NCBI RefSeq assembly: GCF_006716425.1
Contig: NZ_VFOZ01000001.1
Location: 2,294,001-2,358,000 of the forward strand
DNA: 64,000 nt
Origin: Actinoallomurus bryophytorum
Lineage (GTDB): Bacteria > Actinomycetota > Actinomycetes > Streptosporangiales > Streptosporangiaceae
Direction: 5' to 3'
The position numbers and the translations under genes were made by a program. Positions 14,734 through 23,468 of the stretch are shown in pieces (position 1 is the first letter of the stretch; every line of letters starts with the position of its first letter). A model generated the notes under the pieces. That model did not search any database and was not told where the DNA came from. It worked only from the letters and a program-made list of their open reading frames with translations.

Positions 14734-14920
14734 TGATGTCCCCCCCGGGGATGACCGTCTCCACTCGAGCGCTGACCATGCTCGCCGACGCCTTGCGCCA
14801 CTGACGGACACAGTTGCGGACTCGATGGCGGCACCTGGATGTCGGCCGTCGGGCCTGCTGGTGGTGGCCTACCTGCGCAAGGGCGAGCCCACGCCGATCT
14901 GGCCTGCGGGTTCGCGATCG
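14734..14920 (+). pseudogene. IS5-like (DDE_4) transposase, frameshifted N-terminal remnant
   Basis: Across three frames the translation matches the opening of actinomycete IS5-like transposases: TVSTRALTMLADALRH, an in-frame stop, RTQLRTRWRHLDVGRRA, then LLVVAYLRKGE and ADLACGFAID in shifted frames. The similarity ends abruptly where the next transposase remnant begins. Confidence 0.6.
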
Positions 14921-15290
14921 ACACGAGATCACCCGCTTCCGGCCGCCGCTCGACCAACTCGGTGACCTACGTGATTTCGTGGTCATCGTCAACGCTTTGC
15001 ACAGTCAGCGTAACCACGTCACCTACCTCGCCGAACGCGGCGCACGCTGGATCCTGACCGTCAAAGGCAACCAGCCCAGCCTGCACCACAGTTCGCAGCT
15101 CTACCCTGGCGGCTCCGTCCCGGACGCCACCAGCGACGCCGACCTGCGGACACGGCCGCCGCGAGATCTGCGCAATGAAGGCCCCGGTCAGGGTGACGGT
15201 CTCCAGGAAGTCGCAAGCCAGCACCGCGTCGGCCTGCGCCGATTAAGGTACCGCCATCGCAAGTATGTTCGATGCGCCTGGCGTCTCCGG
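14921..15290 (+). pseudogene. ISAs1-family transposase, C-terminal remnant
   Basis: HEITRFRPPLDQLGDLRDF, then VNALHSQRNHVTYLAERGAR and WILTVKGNQPSLH match the central DDE region of ISAs1/H-repeat transposases (family form: ADALHTQ...VKGNQP). After the LPW-like segment the match continues in a shifted frame as GHGRREICAMKAPVRVTVS. The catalytic core is incomplete and no terminal inverted repeats are evident. Confidence 0.65.
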
Positions 15291-15386
15291 ACGTCCTGAT
15301 GCGGCGGATACACAAACGCCCGGGTCGCGCGCCGGACCTTCGACACGCCGAGTGGGGGAACTTGGCGAGAAGTAGCAGGTCAGAGC

Positions 15387-15421: not shown

Positions 15422-15790
15422 ATGCGAGAGGCCGGGCCGGAGGATGAGCGTTCCTTCTCTGAGCGTCTTTTCGGCAGCCGCTACCGGCTGGAGCTGCTGG
15501 CCGCGTTCGCGGCGGCGCCGGACGGCAGGGTGAATCTTGGCGTGCTGGCTGAAGGCAAGGGGGTACGGGCCGCGGTGTACTACCCCGCGATACGCGACTT
15601 GCTCGCGATGCGGTTGGCGGTCCGCATCGAACAGGTCACACGGGACCGGCGGCGCTGGTATGAGCGGTCTGGCGACGATTCCCTCTGGGAGAGCTTCGCC
15701 GCCGTGATCGGCGGTCTCCAGCAGCATTTCGAGCAGATCGTGGGGGCCGACACCGGCCGCCGGGCCAGGCACGAGAGGGTGAGGGCATGA
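15422..15790 (+). CDS. Winged-helix transcriptional regulator
   Basis: A 122-residue single-domain wHTH protein: RLFGSRYRLELLAAFAAAPD (helix 1), GRVNLGVLAEGKGVRAAVYY with PAIRDLLAMRLAV (recognition helices), and RIEQVTRDRRRWYERSG (wing). The layout resembles ArsR/MarR-like or HTH_20-like repressors. It is probably autoregulated through the dyad at its start codon. Its stop overlaps the next start by ATGA (15787-15790), so the two proteins are made together. Confidence 0.8.
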   Translation: MREAGPEDERSFSERLFGSRYRLELLAAFAAAPDGRVNLGVLAEGKGVRAAVYYPAIRDLLAMRLAVRIEQVTRDRRRWYERSGDDSLWESFAAVIGGLQQHFEQIVGADTGRRARHERVRA

Positions 15791-16416
15791 GGGGCGCAGC
15801 AGAGGTCTGTCCGGAGACCGTCAGCGAGGCCGCGTCCGTATTCTCAGCGGGTATCGGATCAGACGCCCAGTCGCGGGTCGTCCTGCAGGGCGTGCCCGCC
15901 GTGTTCAGCTATCGGCTGGAGGCTGAGGCGGGACGCCGGCGCCGGGCCGGGCTCGGCGCGATCACCTCACCCGACATCCTTCAATTCCTGCTGGGCCTGC
16001 CGGTCGGCGTACCGGTCCCGCTGGCCGCGCTGACCCGGCCAGAGCGTTCCGTGCTGCGCTCGGCTGCCGATGGAGCGCTGCTGGTGGAAGACCAGTGTGT
16101 GATCAGGCTCGCCGAGCCTCCTGTAGCGGTGGGCTTGGCGATGGTGCCCGTCCGGGCGTGGCGCCGGGGACTGGAGCACGCTGGCCGTTTCGCGCCGTTC
16201 TGCTCGCGGGCGATGGTGTTGCGCAGGCCGCCCCGCGACCTTGAGGTGCTGCGCATGGAGGCCGACTTCTATGGCATCGGCGTCGTGATTGCCGGAGAAG
16301 GCGCTGAGCCGCCGGAGTTGGTCGTTCCGCCAGCTCCGTTCCATCGCAACCGATTCACCGCCGCAGGGTGGCTGTTCCTGGAGGAGACCTACCGGCAGGT
16401 CACGCGGTCCTCCTAG
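15787..16416 (+). CDS. Unknown protein coupled to the wHTH regulator
   Basis: 209 residues, no recognised family. An early PAVFSYRLEAEAGRRRR segment is followed by a helix-rich LQFLLGLPVGVPVPLAALTR region reminiscent of a wHTH, then VVLRRPPRDLEVLRMEADFY, GIGVVI and a conserved-looking tail RNRFTAAGWLFLEETYRQV. Translation is coupled to the regulator at 15422. It converges on the TGT-like gene with a 4-bp overlap. Function is open; an effector or antitoxin-like partner of the regulator is one possibility. Confidence 0.7.
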   Translation: MRGAAEVCPETVSEAASVFSAGIGSDAQSRVVLQGVPAVFSYRLEAEAGRRRRAGLGAITSPDILQFLLGLPVGVPVPLAALTRPERSVLRSAADGALLVEDQCVIRLAEPPVAVGLAMVPVRAWRRGLEHAGRFAPFCSRAMVLRRPPRDLEVLRMEADFYGIGVVIAGEGAEPPELVVPPAPFHRNRFTAAGWLFLEETYRQVTRSS

Positions 16417-17609
16417 TTCTTCACCGGCATTCCGCGAGGATCGGCGGTTTCGCCGTCGATCGCCAGCCCGGCCCATTTCTTGAGGTGCGTGTCCGGCGCG
16501 AACCGTCCGGGCATCCCAATCCTTATGTTTTCGGCCGCCTGGGCGTCGAGGGCGAGCTTGCACTGGTTGCGCCACCACCGCTGCCGTTCGGTGCCCTGCT
16601 CGGTCAGCAGGGCCGGGAGCCAGGTGTTCCACGTGGCGATGTTGTGCGCGTTGGCGGCGGCTTTTACGGCGTTAGCGGCGCCGAAGAAGGAGTCCAGCAT
16701 TGTTCCGCGGCACTGCGGGCAGCGGCACGGTGGGGCGGGGATGTTGGCATAGGTGTCTGCCAGGAACTTGGCACCGCTGAACCGCAGCATCTCCGGAACC
16801 AGGACGGTCGCGTAGATCGGCCCGCCGCCCTTCTTTGAGGTCTCCGGGAGCTCGCCGGCCGGCACGAGGTGACGGACGGGACCTCCGGCGCCGATGGCGG
16901 CGAACGCGCCGCCGTGCGCCAGCGCGTCGAAGCCCGCCATGTCGGTGCGCCAAAGGCCGGTGCCAGGTGCTTCCCGCAGGAGCGTACGCAGGTTGAGGAC
17001 CGCGGCGGCGAAGTTGTCCATCGGGTTGAACTGGCAGCCGAAGATCAGCCCGACCGGATGCGGGATGAGATTGATGACCGCGGTGAGCTGCTTGCGCGCT
17101 GTCTCGTCCTGGAGCCAGCCGATCGACATAGGAAGAATGACCAGCACGTCGTCGCGCTCCAGCCTCCTGACCTCCTCCATGATCGCTTTGAGGGAGGCGG
17201 AGTCTCGGGCTCTCACGTAGCGGGTGGGGGTGATCGCGAAACTCGCGCCCCGGTCGATCTGCTGCTGCAGAACATCGGGCAGCTCACAGCCGAACATCCC
17301 CTCCGTCGGCAGGTCGAACGGCTCCTTGGGCGTAGCGACCTGCTTCTCGTAGGGAGCGATGTCCTCGGCGAGCACGCCGTGGAAGGCGGGCCTGAGTGCT
17401 TGGAGTTGGGCGGAGGCTCCAGCACCGCACACCACCAGGCCGCCGTGGTCGGGATGCAGATGGGCGGGCGGCTGGGAACCGAGCAACTGCGGCCGCTCCA
17501 GCGTCAAGATCCGCTGAGCGACCGCCCGGGCCGCTGTCCCCTGGTGCTTGCGAGAGGTGAGCAGGGGGCCTGCAGTGGCGTGGCTGTCTGCGGTACTGCT
17601 GTCGTTCAT
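16413..17609 (-). CDS. tRNA-guanine transglycosylase-like protein
   Basis: 398 residues. The region 295-322 has C-x-C-x-x-C (CRCPQC, Cys295, Cys297, Cys300) followed after 21 residues by AHNIATWNTWL with His322. This is the zinc site and HN-x-x-x-(Y/W) helix of tRNA-guanine transglycosylases and their DNA-modifying DpdA relatives. Upstream, FAITPTRYVRARD, VILPMSIGWLQ, LIFGCQFNPMD and DALAHGGAFAAIGAGGPVRH could be barrel strands. Overall similarity to housekeeping Tgt is low, so the substrate is unknown. GAGGTGAG precedes ATG 17609. It lies 16 bp downstream of the XRE-ImmA gene on the same strand, so the two form an operon. Confidence 0.65.
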   Translation of the reverse strand: MNDSSTADSHATAGPLLTSRKHQGTAARAVAQRILTLERPQLLGSQPPAHLHPDHGGLVVCGAGASAQLQALRPAFHGVLAEDIAPYEKQVATPKEPFDLPTEGMFGCELPDVLQQQIDRGASFAITPTRYVRARDSASLKAIMEEVRRLERDDVLVILPMSIGWLQDETARKQLTAVINLIPHPVGLIFGCQFNPMDNFAAAVLNLRTLLREAPGTGLWRTDMAGFDALAHGGAFAAIGAGGPVRHLVPAGELPETSKKGGGPIYATVLVPEMLRFSGAKFLADTYANIPAPPCRCPQCRGTMLDSFFGAANAVKAAANAHNIATWNTWLPALLTEQGTERQRWWRNQCKLALDAQAAENIRIGMPGRFAPDTHLKKWAGLAIDGETADPRGMPVKN

Positions 17610-17625
17610 GCTCACCTCGTGAGAC

Positions 17626-18726
17626 TCAATCGACGTCGTGGTGTGATGACCCGGCGTCGCCGCAGGCGCTGCCAGGGTGAGGTGCGAACAGCAGGGAGTA
17701 CTCCTCCGGAAGCACACCCACTTGGTCTGCGGCACGGGAGAGGCCGTGCTGGTGCGCGAGCGACCGCGCGGCGGCGGCGATAGCGCGTGGGACCTCGCGG
17801 TGGATCTCGCCAGGCTCCTGCTTCTTGTAGCCGAGGGTGGACATCTCGATCACCAGGTTGCGGTACTGCCATTCGCTGATCTGCGACAGAGTCAGCGCGG
17901 TGCGGGCTAGGGCTGCCATCGACACACCCCAGCGCTGCTTCAACGCCAGCAGCCTGGCCAAGTCGAGAGAGCCGCCTAGTTCATCGGCGATGTCGGCGGC
18001 GGGCATCAAGAATTCACTGGCGAACTCGTCGGCCTGCCGCTCCTGAAGGGCCGTCGCACCCGGCTCCGCGTGCATCACGACGTGACCGACCTCGTGGGCG
18101 AAGGTGAACCTGAACCGGTCGGCCGGAGCGTGCGCACTCAGCAAGAACAACGGGGCGTCCACGCCGTCCCACTGGCTGACCGCGTCAAGATCGGGAGTGT
18201 CTAGATCCCGGACCAGCACCATGCCCCCGGCGCTTTCGACGACGCCGATCAGGTCGGCGACCGGGCCGGCCGGAAGGCCCCACAACTTGCGGAGGGCTTG
18301 AGCTGCCTCGGCGGGGGTGTCCAAATCGCTCACCCCGATCCGCTCGAACCGATGAGCACCCCGCACCCGCGGTTCGACCAGGCCGCGTACCTGCAACCAA
18401 GCCATGGCGAGCTGAGCGTGGATACGGCGCAGCTCCTTCGCTCCGAGGGACGCCTTCTTGCGGTGATGCACCAGCCCGATGCCAACCCCGTTCATCTCGG
18501 CATCCACGCACAACACCCCGACCGGATAGCGCAGGACCCGTCCGTACAGAGCCAGCCGCTCACCGTCGACGGCCAGCTTGCCAGCCTCCGCCTTGCTGAC
18601 ATAGCCCTGGCTGATCGGCTCCCCGGCCAGCTTCGACATGGCGTCGGCCAGCGAGGTCTGGCTCATGCCACGGGATTCACGCGCCAGTGTCAGCATCATC
18701 GCGTGCGCCTTCAATGTCTCGCCCAT
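17626..18726 (-). CDS. XRE-HTH / ImmA-IrrE metallopeptidase fusion
   Basis: 366 residues. An N-terminal XRE HTH (about 9-68: LTLARESRGMSQTSLADAMS, SQGYVSKAEAGKLAV) is followed by an ImmA/IrrE peptidase domain with zinc motif HEVGH at 211-215 and the family helix QADEFASEFLMP (231-242). The C-terminal 80 residues are helical and end in a polar tail. Such proteases cleave repressor proteins after stress or phage signals, as in ICEBs1 ImmA and Deinococcus IrrE. ATG 18726 with GGAGG 5 bp upstream is preferred to GTG 18732. It is first in an operon with the TGT-like gene. Confidence 0.88.
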   Translation of the reverse strand: MGETLKAHAMMLTLARESRGMSQTSLADAMSKLAGEPISQGYVSKAEAGKLAVDGERLALYGRVLRYPVGVLCVDAEMNGVGIGLVHHRKKASLGAKELRRIHAQLAMAWLQVRGLVEPRVRGAHRFERIGVSDLDTPAEAAQALRKLWGLPAGPVADLIGVVESAGGMVLVRDLDTPDLDAVSQWDGVDAPLFLLSAHAPADRFRFTFAHEVGHVVMHAEPGATALQERQADEFASEFLMPAADIADELGGSLDLARLLALKQRWGVSMAALARTALTLSQISEWQYRNLVIEMSTLGYKKQEPGEIHREVPRAIAAAARSLAHQHGLSRAADQVGVLPEEYSLLFAPHPGSACGDAGSSHHDVD

Positions 18727-19189
18727 CCCCACCTCCGACCATCACCCGAAGCCCCAGCTTCAGCCACAGATTACACCATCAAATTATTCCTCGTTCCATC
18801 CGTCGATGGTAGTTCTGTCTCCTGACCCTGTGCAGCACACGGCCACCATCGTCTTCGAGGAGTCACGTCCGGCAACGACGGCCACTGGTCGGCGTCATGC
18901 CAGGACCCGAAGTGCCTGTGGGTAGTCTGGCGGCCCGCGCTGCCGACGCACCGACCGTCGTGGTGCGCTTCTTGCTGCCGCCCGCTGCAATATCGACCAA
19001 TCTCCTTCTCGCTTGTCACACCGTGTGACCGACACCCGCTCAACGCATCGGCGCCATGTTTGCTCGCCGTTTGCTCGAACGTCGCGGTATCGCCCGTCAT
19101 CCGTCGGCATTAACCGGCATGGAAATCGGCGAAGTCGCGGATGAATCGGCATAGCCTGACACCGAAAAACCCTATCCGGCACCAGGGCC
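18727..19189. other. Intergenic, promoter region; no gene
   Basis: About 460 bp between the XRE-ImmA operon and the first tRNA-Lys copy. It must hold the operon promoter; the minus strand near 18780 has AT-rich GGAATAATTTG and GTGTAATCTG blocks. No integrase gene or convincing fragment could be read in either strand. Confidence 0.4.
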
Positions 19190-19239
19190 GTGGACTTTTA
19201 ATCCATAGGTTCCGGGTTCGAGTCCCGGACGCCCTACCA
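19190..19239 (+). repeat. tRNA-Lys(TTT) 3' half, attachment-site-like copy 1
   Basis: Contains the anticodon stem-loop (GTGGA-CTTTTAA-TCCAT, anticodon TTT), the T arm (CCGGG-TTCGAGT-CCCGG), the acceptor 3' strand ACGCCCT and ACCA. The 5' acceptor strand and D arm are absent upstream, so it is not a functional tRNA. It is the fragment expected where an element has integrated into a tRNA gene. Confidence 0.8.
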
Positions 19240-19620
19240 CCCCCCTGCCGCTGACCTGCGGTTTCTTCTCGGCACTGATCTTGCCGGTGATCGTTCCTGG
19301 TGACGTGTGCTCATTGTGTGCTCGCGGGGTCATCGCGTGGCACCCGGACGTTTCTGACCCGAGGGTGTGGAACACGTGGACTTGTCGAACCGGCTCGTCG
19401 GTCATTGCTTGTGATCTTGGTTTGGGCGTGGGTTCTTGCAGCACGTCCGGCGGAGGCGTGGAGGGGGGAAACAGTTCAAGTTTCGCGGCACGAGCGGTCG
19501 AAGCTCCACTCGTCTCGATCGGGGTTCTCCGAAAGCGGAACGGTCGATGCATCGTCCGTGACAGCGCATCGGACCGCGGACTTCCAGTCCTTCCAGCGGG
19601 CCGATCGGAGCGCAAGTACT
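19240..19620. other. No supported gene
   Basis: About 380 bp after the first tRNA copy. The first bases (GCTGACCTGCGGTTTC) recur after the second tRNA copy at about 21212 (ACTGACCTGCGATTC). A GATCTTGGTTTGGGCG block near 19412 resembles one near 22568 after the third copy. No gene is visible. Confidence 0.45.
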
Positions 19621-20349: not shown

Positions 20350-21168
20350 GTGAACGAGATGCCGCCCCGGCCGCCACCAGGTGTTGATGTGACGGTGCCC
20401 AATCTCGCCCGGATGAACGACTACTACTTCGGGGGCAAAGACAACTTCGCGGCCGATCGCGAAGCGGCGGAACAGATCCTCAAGATCGCGCCGGAGGTCA
20501 GGCTCCTGGCGCGGGAGAACAGGGCGTACACCGCCCGCGTCGTGGAGTTCCTCGCCGGTGAGGGTATCGAGCAGTACATCTCGATCGGGAATGGCCTGCC
20601 CGCCGAATGCAACACCCACGGCGCCCTGCGCGCGGTCGCCCCGCACGCCAAGCTCGTCTACGTCGAGCATGATCCCGTCGTCCTCGTACACGCCCAAGCT
20701 CTCATCGCCGGCGCGCCCGGCACCGTCGTGATCAAGGGCCATGTCCTCCGGCCGAAGAAGATCATTACCCACCCGGAGGTGCGGGCGCTACTCGACGTCG
20801 ACCGCCCGATCGCTGTCCTCATCTTCGGCACACTGCATTTTTTCGGCGCCGAGGTTTTCGACGCTGTATCCGTCTTCCGCGATGCGCTCGCACCCGGGAG
20901 CTACCTCGCCCTGTCCCACGCGGTGTTCGACTCCAGACCCGAGGCCGCGGGACCGATGGTGGAGATCTACCAGAAGATCTTCAACCGGACGAACGATCCA
21001 TCACGCAACCGCGAGGATCTACTCCCCTTCTTCGACGGTCTACGACTCGCCGAACCCGGACTGGTGGACATTCGCGAGTGGCGCACCGGCGCCACGGTCA
21101 GCAGCGCCGCCGCCGAATTCGTGTACGTGGCCGGCGGCGTCGGCCTCAAACCACCAGCACCCGAATAA
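20350..21168 (+). CDS. SAM-dependent methyltransferase, PF04672 (DUF574) type
   Basis: A 272-residue protein of the actinobacterial PF04672 group: NLARMNDYYFGGKDNFAADR and EAAEQILKIAPEVRLLAREN are the family signature. The SAM-binding region follows (YISIGNGLPAE where the family has D-x-G-x-G-x-P, then LVYVEHDPVVLVHAQAL) and a typical tail. The Asp of the usual DIGTG motif is Ile-Gly-Asn-Gly here, so activity is uncertain. GTG 20350 and ATG 20359 are both possible starts. The stop codon is 7 bp from the second tRNA-Lys copy. Confidence 0.85.
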   Translation: MNEMPPRPPPGVDVTVPNLARMNDYYFGGKDNFAADREAAEQILKIAPEVRLLARENRAYTARVVEFLAGEGIEQYISIGNGLPAECNTHGALRAVAPHAKLVYVEHDPVVLVHAQALIAGAPGTVVIKGHVLRPKKIITHPEVRALLDVDRPIAVLIFGTLHFFGAEVFDAVSVFRDALAPGSYLALSHAVFDSRPEAAGPMVEIYQKIFNRTNDPSRNREDLLPFFDGLRLAEPGLVDIREWRTGATVSSAAAEFVYVAGGVGLKPPAPE

Positions 21169-21175
21169 CAACCCT

Positions 21176-21202
21176 CGGGTTCGAGTCCCGGACGCCCTAC
21201 CA
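21176..21202 (+). repeat. tRNA-Lys 3' end, attachment-site-like copy 2
   Basis: 27 bp covering the last part of the T arm, acceptor 3' strand and ACCA (CGGGTTCGAG, then TCCCGGACGCCCTACCA), identical to the end of copy 1. It directly follows the methyltransferase gene, and its downstream flank resembles that of copy 1. Confidence 0.8.
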
Positions 21203-21327
21203 CGCCATATGGCCACTGACCTGCGATTCGCCACTCGTGATGATCACTGACCGGGCAGTTAGGGGTCCCGCAGCCAAGCGCCGGCTCACAGCACCAAATC
21301 GAGTTTCCGAGCTGGGCATGAGGAGGC

Positions 21328-22069: not shown

Positions 22070-22514
22070 TTATGCGCGTCGCAGGCGTTTAGCAGCACGG
22101 CTCTCACATGGCTCTTCCCAGGACATCGCCAGAGCCATGTTCAGGTGTGCGGCGCATTCGAGGAGCAGGGCGTGGACGAACGCCTGCGGGAGGTTGTCGC
22201 GCATTTGGCGCTCGGCCACGTCGTACTCTTCCGCGAGCAGCCCGGCCGAGCCGCAGGCGACGCGGTTGCGTTCGAACCAGCGCAGTGCCGCGAGACGGTC
22301 GCCCAGTTGACGGCTACCAGTGCGACGAGGAACCCGCAGAGAAGGAAGGCGCCTTCGGCGCGGCCCAGAGGCCCGTCGTGGCGGAACGCGGTAGGCGTAT
22401 CCGTCGTCGGTGAGTTCGGCGGAGTAGGCCTCCAGCTTGTGGCTGCTGCGAGGGTCATCCGCAGGGACGGCGCCGCAGAGTGCGGGCAGCAGCAGCGCGC
22501 CGTCAAGGCGAGCA
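22070..22514 (-). pseudogene. Glycoside hydrolase family 15 (glucoamylase/trehalase-like), C-terminal remnant
   Basis: Three consecutive frame segments rebuild the end of a GH15 enzyme: LDGALLLPALCGAVPADDPR, ELTDDGYAYRV; then in a shifted frame DGPLGRAEGAFLLCGFLVAL; then back to GSAGLLAEEYDVAERQMRDN and LPQAFVHALLLECAAHLN. The (alpha/alpha)6 family ends with just this E-G-A-F-L-L-C and L-x-x-E-E-Y-D pattern. About 450 N-terminal residues are missing: similarity starts exactly where tRNA-Lys copy 3 ends. Confidence 0.75.
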
Positions 22515-22519
22515 TCGAC

Positions 22520-22552
22520 AGGTTCCGGGTTCGAGTCCCGGACGCCCGACCA
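22520..22552 (+). repeat. tRNA-Lys 3' end, attachment-site-like copy 3
   Basis: 33 bp matching copies 1 and 2 from AGGTTCCGGG through the T arm and acceptor to ACCA, with one change (ACGCCCG for ACGCCCT). It forms the junction with the truncated GH15 gene. Confidence 0.78.
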
Positions 22553-22712
22553 CCCCCTGTAGTCGCGATCTTGGTTGGGTGCGAGTTCCTGCTGCGGCAC
22601 GGAGAGCGGGGCAAAGAGATCACGCTCCGCGACATGAGCGGACGTCTGCCGATCGACGGTGGACGGCTTGGGTCGGTTGCGGCGTTGATGGGCCGAGCAC
22701 CACACTTCTGTG

Positions 22713-23468
22713 GTGATCCGCTTTCGCTTCGCCTTAACGCCGATGGACCGCGTGCAGCCATGGGGCTGGGAGGAGGATCCTCACCTGCACTGGTTCGGGT
22801 TGACCGACGGGTGGTACTGGATCGAGCTAGGGGATCAGGAACTGCTGCGGTATTCACCGGAGACGCTCGAGTGGTTCGGCCGTGACGATCTCGGGCTGCG
22901 GCATCCCTATGCCGACTACCAAGTCGTCCGCTTGTGGGAAGACCTCATCGACCTGACCCCGATGGTCATGCAACCCGTCCCGAACGACCTGGAGCCGTTC
23001 ATCAGCGCCGACGTCCCCGAGCGGCCGGACCTGGACGACGACGAGGATGCATGGAGTGCCATGGTCTGGTGCAGCGAGCACTATCTGGATCCGGGCTACC
23101 TCCGGGCGGCCCCCGAGGTTTGCGCCTGGCGCAGCCTGGCCGGCGACGACACGGTCACCGTGGCCTGGCAACACCCCCGCGATGACGAGATCGTGTTCAC
23201 TGCGCCTCAGGCAGGCCAGGTGACCGTGCCCACCGAGGCGTACCTCACCGCGGTGCGCCGGCTCGACACCGAACTCATGGCCGCCATGCACGACAGGATC
23301 ACCGAGCTGGAGCTGGTCGGGCCACCACAGGGTGTACGGATCGACATGGACCAATTGCGTGCCGAGCACCACGGCCGAACGACATGGCTGTCCGAACACC
23401 TGCGCTTCCAACCGACCACTGACTGGGCCGCTGTTCGGAGCGGCGTCCAGCGGATCCTCGGAGACTGA
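22713..23468 (+). CDS. DUF5984 family protein
   Basis: About 251 residues. IRFRFALTPMDRVQPWGWEE, HWFGLTDGWYWIELG and LLRYSPETLEWF match the conserved opening of DUF5984 proteins, which are common near immunity-type or orphan loci in actinomycetes and of unknown function. Acidic and tryptophan-rich throughout, no signal peptide or membrane segment. GTG 22710 and 22713 are both usable starts. Confidence 0.75.
   Translation: MIRFRFALTPMDRVQPWGWEEDPHLHWFGLTDGWYWIELGDQELLRYSPETLEWFGRDDLGLRHPYADYQVVRLWEDLIDLTPMVMQPVPNDLEPFISADVPERPDLDDDEDAWSAMVWCSEHYLDPGYLRAAPEVCAWRSLAGDDTVTVAWQHPRDDEIVFTAPQAGQVTVPTEAYLTAVRRLDTELMAAMHDRITELELVGPPQGVRIDMDQLRAEHHGRTTWLSEHLRFQPTTDWAAVRSGVQRILGD

Follow-up and report, generated by a model that had tools for sequence, protein, structure and literature searches.

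Proteins of the tRNA-guanine transglycosylase (TGT) fold are known as base exchangers, with two catalytic Asp residues in the canonical enzymes (D102 and D280 by the numbering of Z. mobilis), and DpdA belongs to the same superfamily. In RosmerTA systems, RmrA proteins pair with diverse toxins, according to PMC10440598, while BRC systems (HerA/FtsK-centred, bacteriophage exclusion (BREX)-related capture) carry a TGT homologue and a GNAT protein, according to PMC12839542. The present study analysed a 64,000-nucleotide stretch of the genome of the soil actinomycete Actinoallomurus bryophytorum (contig NZ_VFOZ01000001.1, positions 2,294,001 to 2,358,000; hereafter, the window), with a focus on a gene encoding a TGT-fold protein (T), the convergent gene c1 behind it, and an upstream gene (XRE-ImmA) encoding an XRE helix-turn-helix and ImmA/IrrE metallopeptidase protein. 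This module is apparently undescribed, as no paper describing the ImmA-T-c1 combination was recognised in a literature search that was thin on subscription journals and bioRxiv preprints. It is read here, with a probability of roughly 0.45, as a toxin-antitoxin-like, RosmerTA-like module with T as the effector, c1 as its partner or antidote, and XRE-ImmA as an optional regulator. The likeness to RosmerTA is drawn because RmrA was the best PADLOC match of XRE-ImmA over nearly its full length, and because RmrA proteins have such varied toxin partners in the RosmerTA article cited above.

The AlphaFold2 model of T (25 homologues) had a predicted local distance difference test score (pLDDT) of 91.0 and a predicted template modelling score of 0.90, and was of the TIM-barrel type. 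Foldseek comparison with the PDB returned TGTs at all of ranks 1-10 (E = 4.1e-4 to 2.7e-3, probability 0.99-1.00), with template modelling (TM) scores of 0.42-0.49 by query length and root-mean-square deviations of 6.2-8.5; the archaeal TGT 1iq8 was found at rank 9, and other TIM barrels were mixed in from rank 11 onward. A TGT-like TIM barrel with a zinc site, proposed earlier from the letters alone (the sequence-only reading), was thus borne out by structure prediction and fold comparison, and the pattern on which it had been based, Cys295-x-Cys297-x-x-Cys300 with His322, was present, the latter in H322-N323-x-x-x-W327. In the full-length homologues (n = 41; L047 omitted as short, L086 and L093 as broken), C295 was kept in 39 and C297, C300, and H322 in all 41, which argues against a chance motif.

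The active site of T appears to differ from that of known TGTs. In a weak hhalign alignment with 34 canonical TGTs (P = 0.0019, probability 14%; 5% against four TGTs), D83 fell on the Asp of the DSGGFQ motif and the zinc region was in register. Among the homologues, D83 was kept in 41/41 and R246 in 39/41. By strand order, read by eye and not from a superposition, the TGT nucleophile (FDCV) corresponds to A237/A238 of T, and position 238 was A or S in all 41 rows; D223, which by topology lies at the end of the strand preceding the nucleophile position, was D in 36 of them. On this by-eye mapping, T would combine the TGT fold and zinc site with a changed active site. Moreover, no PF01702 protein was found in the own genome or in 36 of the 40 T-bearing genomes. 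As such, the fold and zinc site of the base-exchange enzyme envisaged by the sequence-only reading were recovered, but the exchange itself is doubtful because the nucleophile position is Ala/Ser and 36/40 genomes carry no canonical TGT; a queuosine role of T is unlikely.

Compared with bacterial Tgt and archaeal ArcTGT (PF01702), T shares the barrel, the C-x-C-x-x-C...HN zinc site, and D83 as the counterpart of the DSGGFQ Asp, whereas it lacks a PF01702 match, has A/S in place of the FDCV nucleophile Asp, and is kept with c1 and partly with ImmA. None of 25 T members matched PF01702, the profile to which the sequence-only reading had pointed, at E 0.5, and a plain PF01702 enzyme was ruled out by this result and the missing nucleophile. 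Searches of Pfam, NCBIfam, PADLOC, and PHROGs assigned T to no family. With DpdA, T shares the superfamily and a link to phage-host conflict, including at L090 a DpdE-like helicase two genes away, but hhalign of T with the DpdA of phage 9g, the one compared, gave no meaningful alignment, by which T as a DpdA was ruled out, and the 9g protein has no C-x-C-x-x-C. Unlike in Dpd clusters, where 7-deazaguanine synthesis genes accompany dpdB and dpdC, no deazaguanine synthesis gene was recognised among the T neighbours examined, and none was detected among the 10 neighbouring window proteins scanned with Pfam. PMC12839542 likewise describes a TGT homologue among BREX-related defence genes, but there the TGT stands with PglZ, DUF6079, STAND, DUF4007, and HerA, whereas T stands with c1, partly with ImmA, and with varying neighbours. 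The T of the window had no match among 50,697 phage records at E 0.01 and was rejected as a phage protein by sequence, while phage relatives in fold may exist: a viral fold library gave no match at E 0.001, its best match being an uncharacterised protein of Gordonia phage Powerball (E = 1.1e-3, probability 0.98, TM 0.39-0.40) and its fourth a putative queuine tRNA-ribosyltransferase of a Sulfolobales virus. E-values from the scripted comparisons refer to small databases.

A scan of genome contigs found one relative. With the own genome included in each count, T was detected in 21/198 relatives, 24/394 genomes of the class, and 3/246 genomes of a phylum sample, two of the latter outside the class. 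A total of 44 loci were analysed (the window, L025, 23 from the survey of relatives, and 19 from the class sample; the short second pieces L073-L075 from the class sample were not counted). Gene calling around 24 relatives with a home-made gene caller revealed c1 as a convergent gene right behind T, and it immediately adjoins the 3' end of T in the opposite orientation at 37/44 loci, 32 of them found by profile and five (L087, L088, L090, L091, and L093) by a more sensitive test. Both T loci outside the class also had a convergent c1. Thus c1 is the most constant partner of T, a gene overlooked by the sequence-only reading, which had taken the ImmA-T pair as the unit. The c1 model was well defined (pLDDT 93.9), with no significant PDB fold match (best E 0.49) and no Pfam family; c1 is a doubtful candidate for a known nuclease, the matches to YaeQ and Card1 being weak (best E 0.49), and an antisense shadow of T was rejected, since c1 lies beyond the T stop and overlaps T by at most about 100 bp.

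Evolutionary distances of T and c1 were correlated (r = 0.91 over 31 loci, L086 and the five late finds omitted), also after thinning to 18 loci (r = 0.73). Furthermore, the putative active site of T was kept where c1 was present. D223 was lost at four of the seven loci without c1 (L039, L047, L092, and L094); L048 and L085 had T127, P128, and P160 all changed together, and L084 alone kept all sites. Among c1-bearing full-length rows, D223 stood in the column in 33/35, with an acid one column off in L040 and L046, so counted giving a post hoc Fisher p = 3e-4 for D223 loss against c1 absence, or 0.004 if L040 and L046 are counted as lost; grouping the c1-less loci by clade gave a contrast of 3/5 versus 0/35 (p 0.001, c1-bearing rows not collapsed). 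Single changes also occurred in c1-bearing rows, namely T127 in L026, L028, and L082, and P160 in L040 and L046. This pattern does not distinguish an antidote from a partner role of c1.

In the class sample, c1 was present in 28/394 genomes, 12 of which were not among the 24 T-bearing ones, and no T was found near c1 in the stretches from 11 of these 12 or near a second c1 copy in G446. By eye, two such loci (L172 and L173) lie within runs of small co-directional genes resembling an integrative element; eight (L174-L179, L182, and L183) share a single chromosomal position close to rph/murI-like genes, where a recombinase-like gene accompanies three of them and an ImmA-like fragment one, L178; the remaining two, L180 and L181, sit elsewhere. 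The occurrence of c1 without T fits a free-standing antidote.

For XRE-ImmA, Pfam identified Peptidase_M78 (E = 9.4e-19) and HTH_3 (E = 9e-6). Its best PADLOC match was RmrA (E = 6.3e-57, residues 13-348 against 6-333 of the 363 profile positions), whereas capP, a regulator of the cyclic-oligonucleotide-based anti-phage signalling system (CBASS), matched much more weakly (E = 1.4e-17), and PHROG 2439 'transcriptional regulator' matched at E = 2.3e-62. As in RosmerTA, an RmrA-like protein here forms an operon-like pair with another gene, but the partner has a TGT-like fold and no PADLOC model match, a second, convergent partner is present, and most loci have no upstream ImmA. In the window, the HEVGH motif and the 16-bp spacing upstream of T were both as the sequence-only reading had claimed. 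Across the family, its ImmA-T adjacency was seen on the same strand in a minority only, 14/44 loci (a 55-residue remnant at L077 and a split copy at the contig start of L086 included), but recurred in several separate clades; the gap was 8-31 nt in eight of the 14, and about 350 nt from the presumed T start in L087 and L088. The scattering of ImmA-bearing loci over separated clades of the T tree (built with the 32 c1 calls then known, not 37, and with L077 counted as ImmA-bearing) indicates that loss or repeated gain is common. T and ImmA distances were also correlated: over 12 loci (L046, L077, and L086 omitted), r was 0.95, a value reached in none of 5000 permutations, and a subset thinned to seven divergent loci still gave r = 0.82 (p = 0.0044), in agreement with the operon-like link claimed for the co-directional neighbours.

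The whole set was also present on Arthrobacter agilis plasmid pAAG24-80, with an annotated ImmA, T as 'hypothetical protein', and a convergent c1 (L134:7795-8406, E = 3.6e-6) missing from the gene table of the plasmid; zeta-toxin and RES-family genes lie in the same stretch. T, c1, and, in a third of the loci, an upstream XRE-ImmA form a recurring unit with correlated distances. A different arrangement was observed at L046 (L046:5414-8831), where an E1/JAB-like gene (PADLOC E1-E2, E = 7.3e-17) and a small, by eye E2-like gene precede T, with an ImmA gene 2.4 kb away on the other strand; L046 is another sensor-type setting for T.

The genes around T suggest a link with defence. Among neighbours picked by eye, a biased choice, were PglW at L081 and L083, BrxC and PglZ at L084, a DpdE-like helicase at L090, DrmD-like and type IIG genes at L093 and L040, a type I methylase at L032, E1-E2 at L046, and JetC at L038, while eight of the 25 (at L078, L041 (one of two), L034, L077, L089, L091, L086, and L044; those of L189 excluded) had no match at E 1e-15. 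Under a fixed rule, by which each locus contributed its largest gene no more than 4 kb from T, 39 PADLOC families were matched at E 1e-50 over 44 neighbour proteins, against none over 40 control genes, the two largest from each of 20 regions taken arbitrarily from these genomes, the neighbours being longer on average (34,116 aa/44 vs 25,554 aa/40). Defence genes (BREX, Wadjet, restriction, and Dpd-like) thus lay near at least 8/44 loci versus 0/40 controls (Fisher p 0.006), the nameable eight being L032, L038, L040, L081, L083, L084, L090, and L093, with 25 of the 39 families seen but their members not named; a fixed-rule type I methylase match (E = 1.9e-101) fits none of the eight. Because the neighbours vary by locus, T-c1 would seem to reside in defence islands in its own right and not as a component of BREX or a similar system. 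The defence link made by the sequence-only reading therefore holds for the family at large, but not around the window's own copy. At L090 (L090:822-9071), two helicases, one DpdE-like (E = 7.7e-227) and one MkoA/MkoC-like, lie near T and a divergent c1; this may be a Dpd-like cluster in which a T-type protein takes the place of DpdA.

The fold, linkage, and setting of the module are demonstrated here; its toxicity, immunity, and substrate and the roles of c1 and XRE-ImmA are inferred as follows. T would be the effector, its TGT pocket binding a purine base or nucleotide of RNA or DNA, with D83 and D223 perhaps standing in for the usual Asp pair, and its action would harm the cell or the invader. 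The constant partner c1 would most likely be the antidote or gate of T, and XRE-ImmA, as a relative of the RosmerTA antitoxin RmrA, may repress or neutralise the operon and release it once its peptidase is triggered, or the protein itself removed, by infection or damage. Against the fold claim, a profile search of PDB sequences with T placed maleylacetate reductases at the top (E 0.011 and 0.23), then a designed TIM barrel (0.29), and the archaeal TGT 1iq8 fourth, weakly (E 0.4) and via the zinc region. Several points weigh against the reading as a whole. Correlated distances cannot separate co-transfer from shared function, the D223 criterion was chosen after the alignment had been viewed, and the decay of T without c1 fits an obligatory partner equally well. 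A convergent antidote gene is unusual, and with 30/44 loci lacking a co-directional upstream ImmA, the latter is not an obligatory antitoxin. In addition, the defence enrichment is based on 44 loci, 40 control genes from 20 regions, and eight nameable cases; around the window copy, ten neighbouring proteins contained no known defence gene by Pfam (aldo/keto reductase, short-chain dehydrogenase and similar, or no family), and the nearest defence genes seen lie about 120 kb away.

The constancy of c1 and the decay of T in its absence would also suit a somewhat unlikely alternative, in which T and c1 together make up an enzyme that modifies nucleic acid, each contributing one subunit; as a transglycosylase of the DpdA or QTRT1/QTRT2 kind, it would mark self DNA or alter a tRNA, with XRE-ImmA controlling expression only. 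This alternative draws on the TGT fold and zinc site of T and on self-marking neighbours at some loci (BREX, type IIG, type I methylases, and the DpdE-like helicase), and preQ0 supply is possible in the own genome given six partial QueC-profile matches (single stretches of no more than 25.6 bits, five of them flagged as exceeding the cut-off of 22), which we take to be other PP-loop enzymes. However, the Ala/Ser at the nucleophile position and the rarity of canonical TGTs in the same genomes speak against it, and the two genes are convergent rather than co-directional, with c1 also standing alone. The same missing nucleophile, together with the retained fold, D83, R246, and zinc site, would be expected of a catalytically dead reader, which would detect modified bases of phage nucleic acid, 7-deazaguanine or others, in its pocket and pass a signal on to c1 or ImmA. 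Actinophages carry 7-deazaguanine DNA, and defence genes adjoin some of the loci; even so, this is improbable, as D223, placed at a barrel-strand end by topology, is kept in most homologues but would be needless in a dead pocket. That T is unlinked to ImmA and the pair is an accident of a cargo-rich island would account for the many loci without ImmA. Such an accident is very improbable and is disfavoured by the plasmid copy, the same order in several divergent clades and, weakly (E 2.4e-5, at the edge of the stretch), at one of the two loci outside the class, and the correlated distances.

A more far-reaching reading, rather doubtful as a whole, would be an immune module of a new kind whose effector is a rebuilt TGT that employs a relocated Asp to attack, or simply recognise, a (modified) guanine in phage DNA or host tRNA. 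This effector would be held by c1, an antidote without a recognised fold, and, in part of the family, by the ImmA protease, and c1 copies standing alone, of which some may sit on mobile elements, would serve as counter-immunity. More broadly, the fold and zinc site of T, its changed active site, the c1 and RmrA-type company, and the defence neighbours point to a new immune use of the TGT pocket, which could be tested with three small genes, T and c1 having no model in the family libraries searched. Overall, the sequence-only reading was partly supported.

Features of the module and its surroundings, in window coordinates
Feature	Position	Strand	Remarks
c1, 209 aa, no known family	15787-16416	+	convergent with T; stop codons overlap by 4 bp
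T, TGT-fold protein, 398 aa	16413-17609	-	ATG at 17609; D83 and D223 at strand ends (predicted); R246; zinc site C295/C297/C300/H322
XRE-HTH + ImmA/IrrE metallopeptidase, RmrA-like	17626-18726	-	ATG at 18726 behind GGAGG, the likelier start
122-aa winged-helix-like protein (label by eye)	15422-15790	+	overlaps c1 start; cluster c9
Conserved block upstream of ImmA gene, GAGGAATAATTTGATGGTGTAATCTGTGG	18764-18792	-	holds TANNNT, possible -10 box
tRNA-Lys(TTT) 3' end, att-like repeat copy 1	19201-19244	+	~440 bp from module end
tRNA-Lys 3'-end copy 2	21164-21207		75%
tRNA-Lys 3'-end copy 3	22514-22557		93%

For XRE-ImmA, a longer open reading frame (ORF) with a GTG start at 18732 (17626-18732, minus strand) is the other option. 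Upstream of it, the GAGGAATAATTTGATGGTGTAATCTGTGG block was by eye the main conserved block amid divergent DNA in the window, L025, L026, and L027, and is a candidate promoter or operator; a palindrome search in the same region gave nothing useful. The 122-aa protein preceding c1 had no Pfam match, and besides the window its homologues adjoin c1 in 2/24 relatives (L025 and L032).

With respect to the genomic site, the three tRNA-Lys 3'-end copies are spaced 1.96 and 1.35 kb, recurring twice within 3.4 kb, and resemble nested att sites belonging to small insertions, with a Methyltransf_19 gene (20350-21168) inside the first interval. Rfam placed a tRNA remnant at 19168-19228, below the gathering score, and the genome holds an intact tRNA-Lys(TTT) (L189) some 128 kb upstream. 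Hence, of the island bounds in the sequence-only reading, the tRNA-Lys attachment-like copies were largely right, whereas the transposase remnants were not confirmed, the only ORF scanned as such (14814-15296) having no Pfam match at E 0.01. A crude tyrosine-integrase motif scan of the window and the 110 kb between found none, and so a single 128-kb element is not demonstrated. A CBASS-like set, comprising a cyclase (E = 2.1e-146), an E2 (E = 4e-59), and a SAVED-PDDEXK endonuclease (E = 1.8e-162), was located at L189:2134-6914 (~2.1856-2.1904 Mb), within 1 to 6 kb downstream of the intact tRNA-Lys; together with the tRNA-Lys repeats, it fits an integration hot spot. In the window, a DUF5984 protein (E = 6.4e-82) was also identified at 22710-23468.

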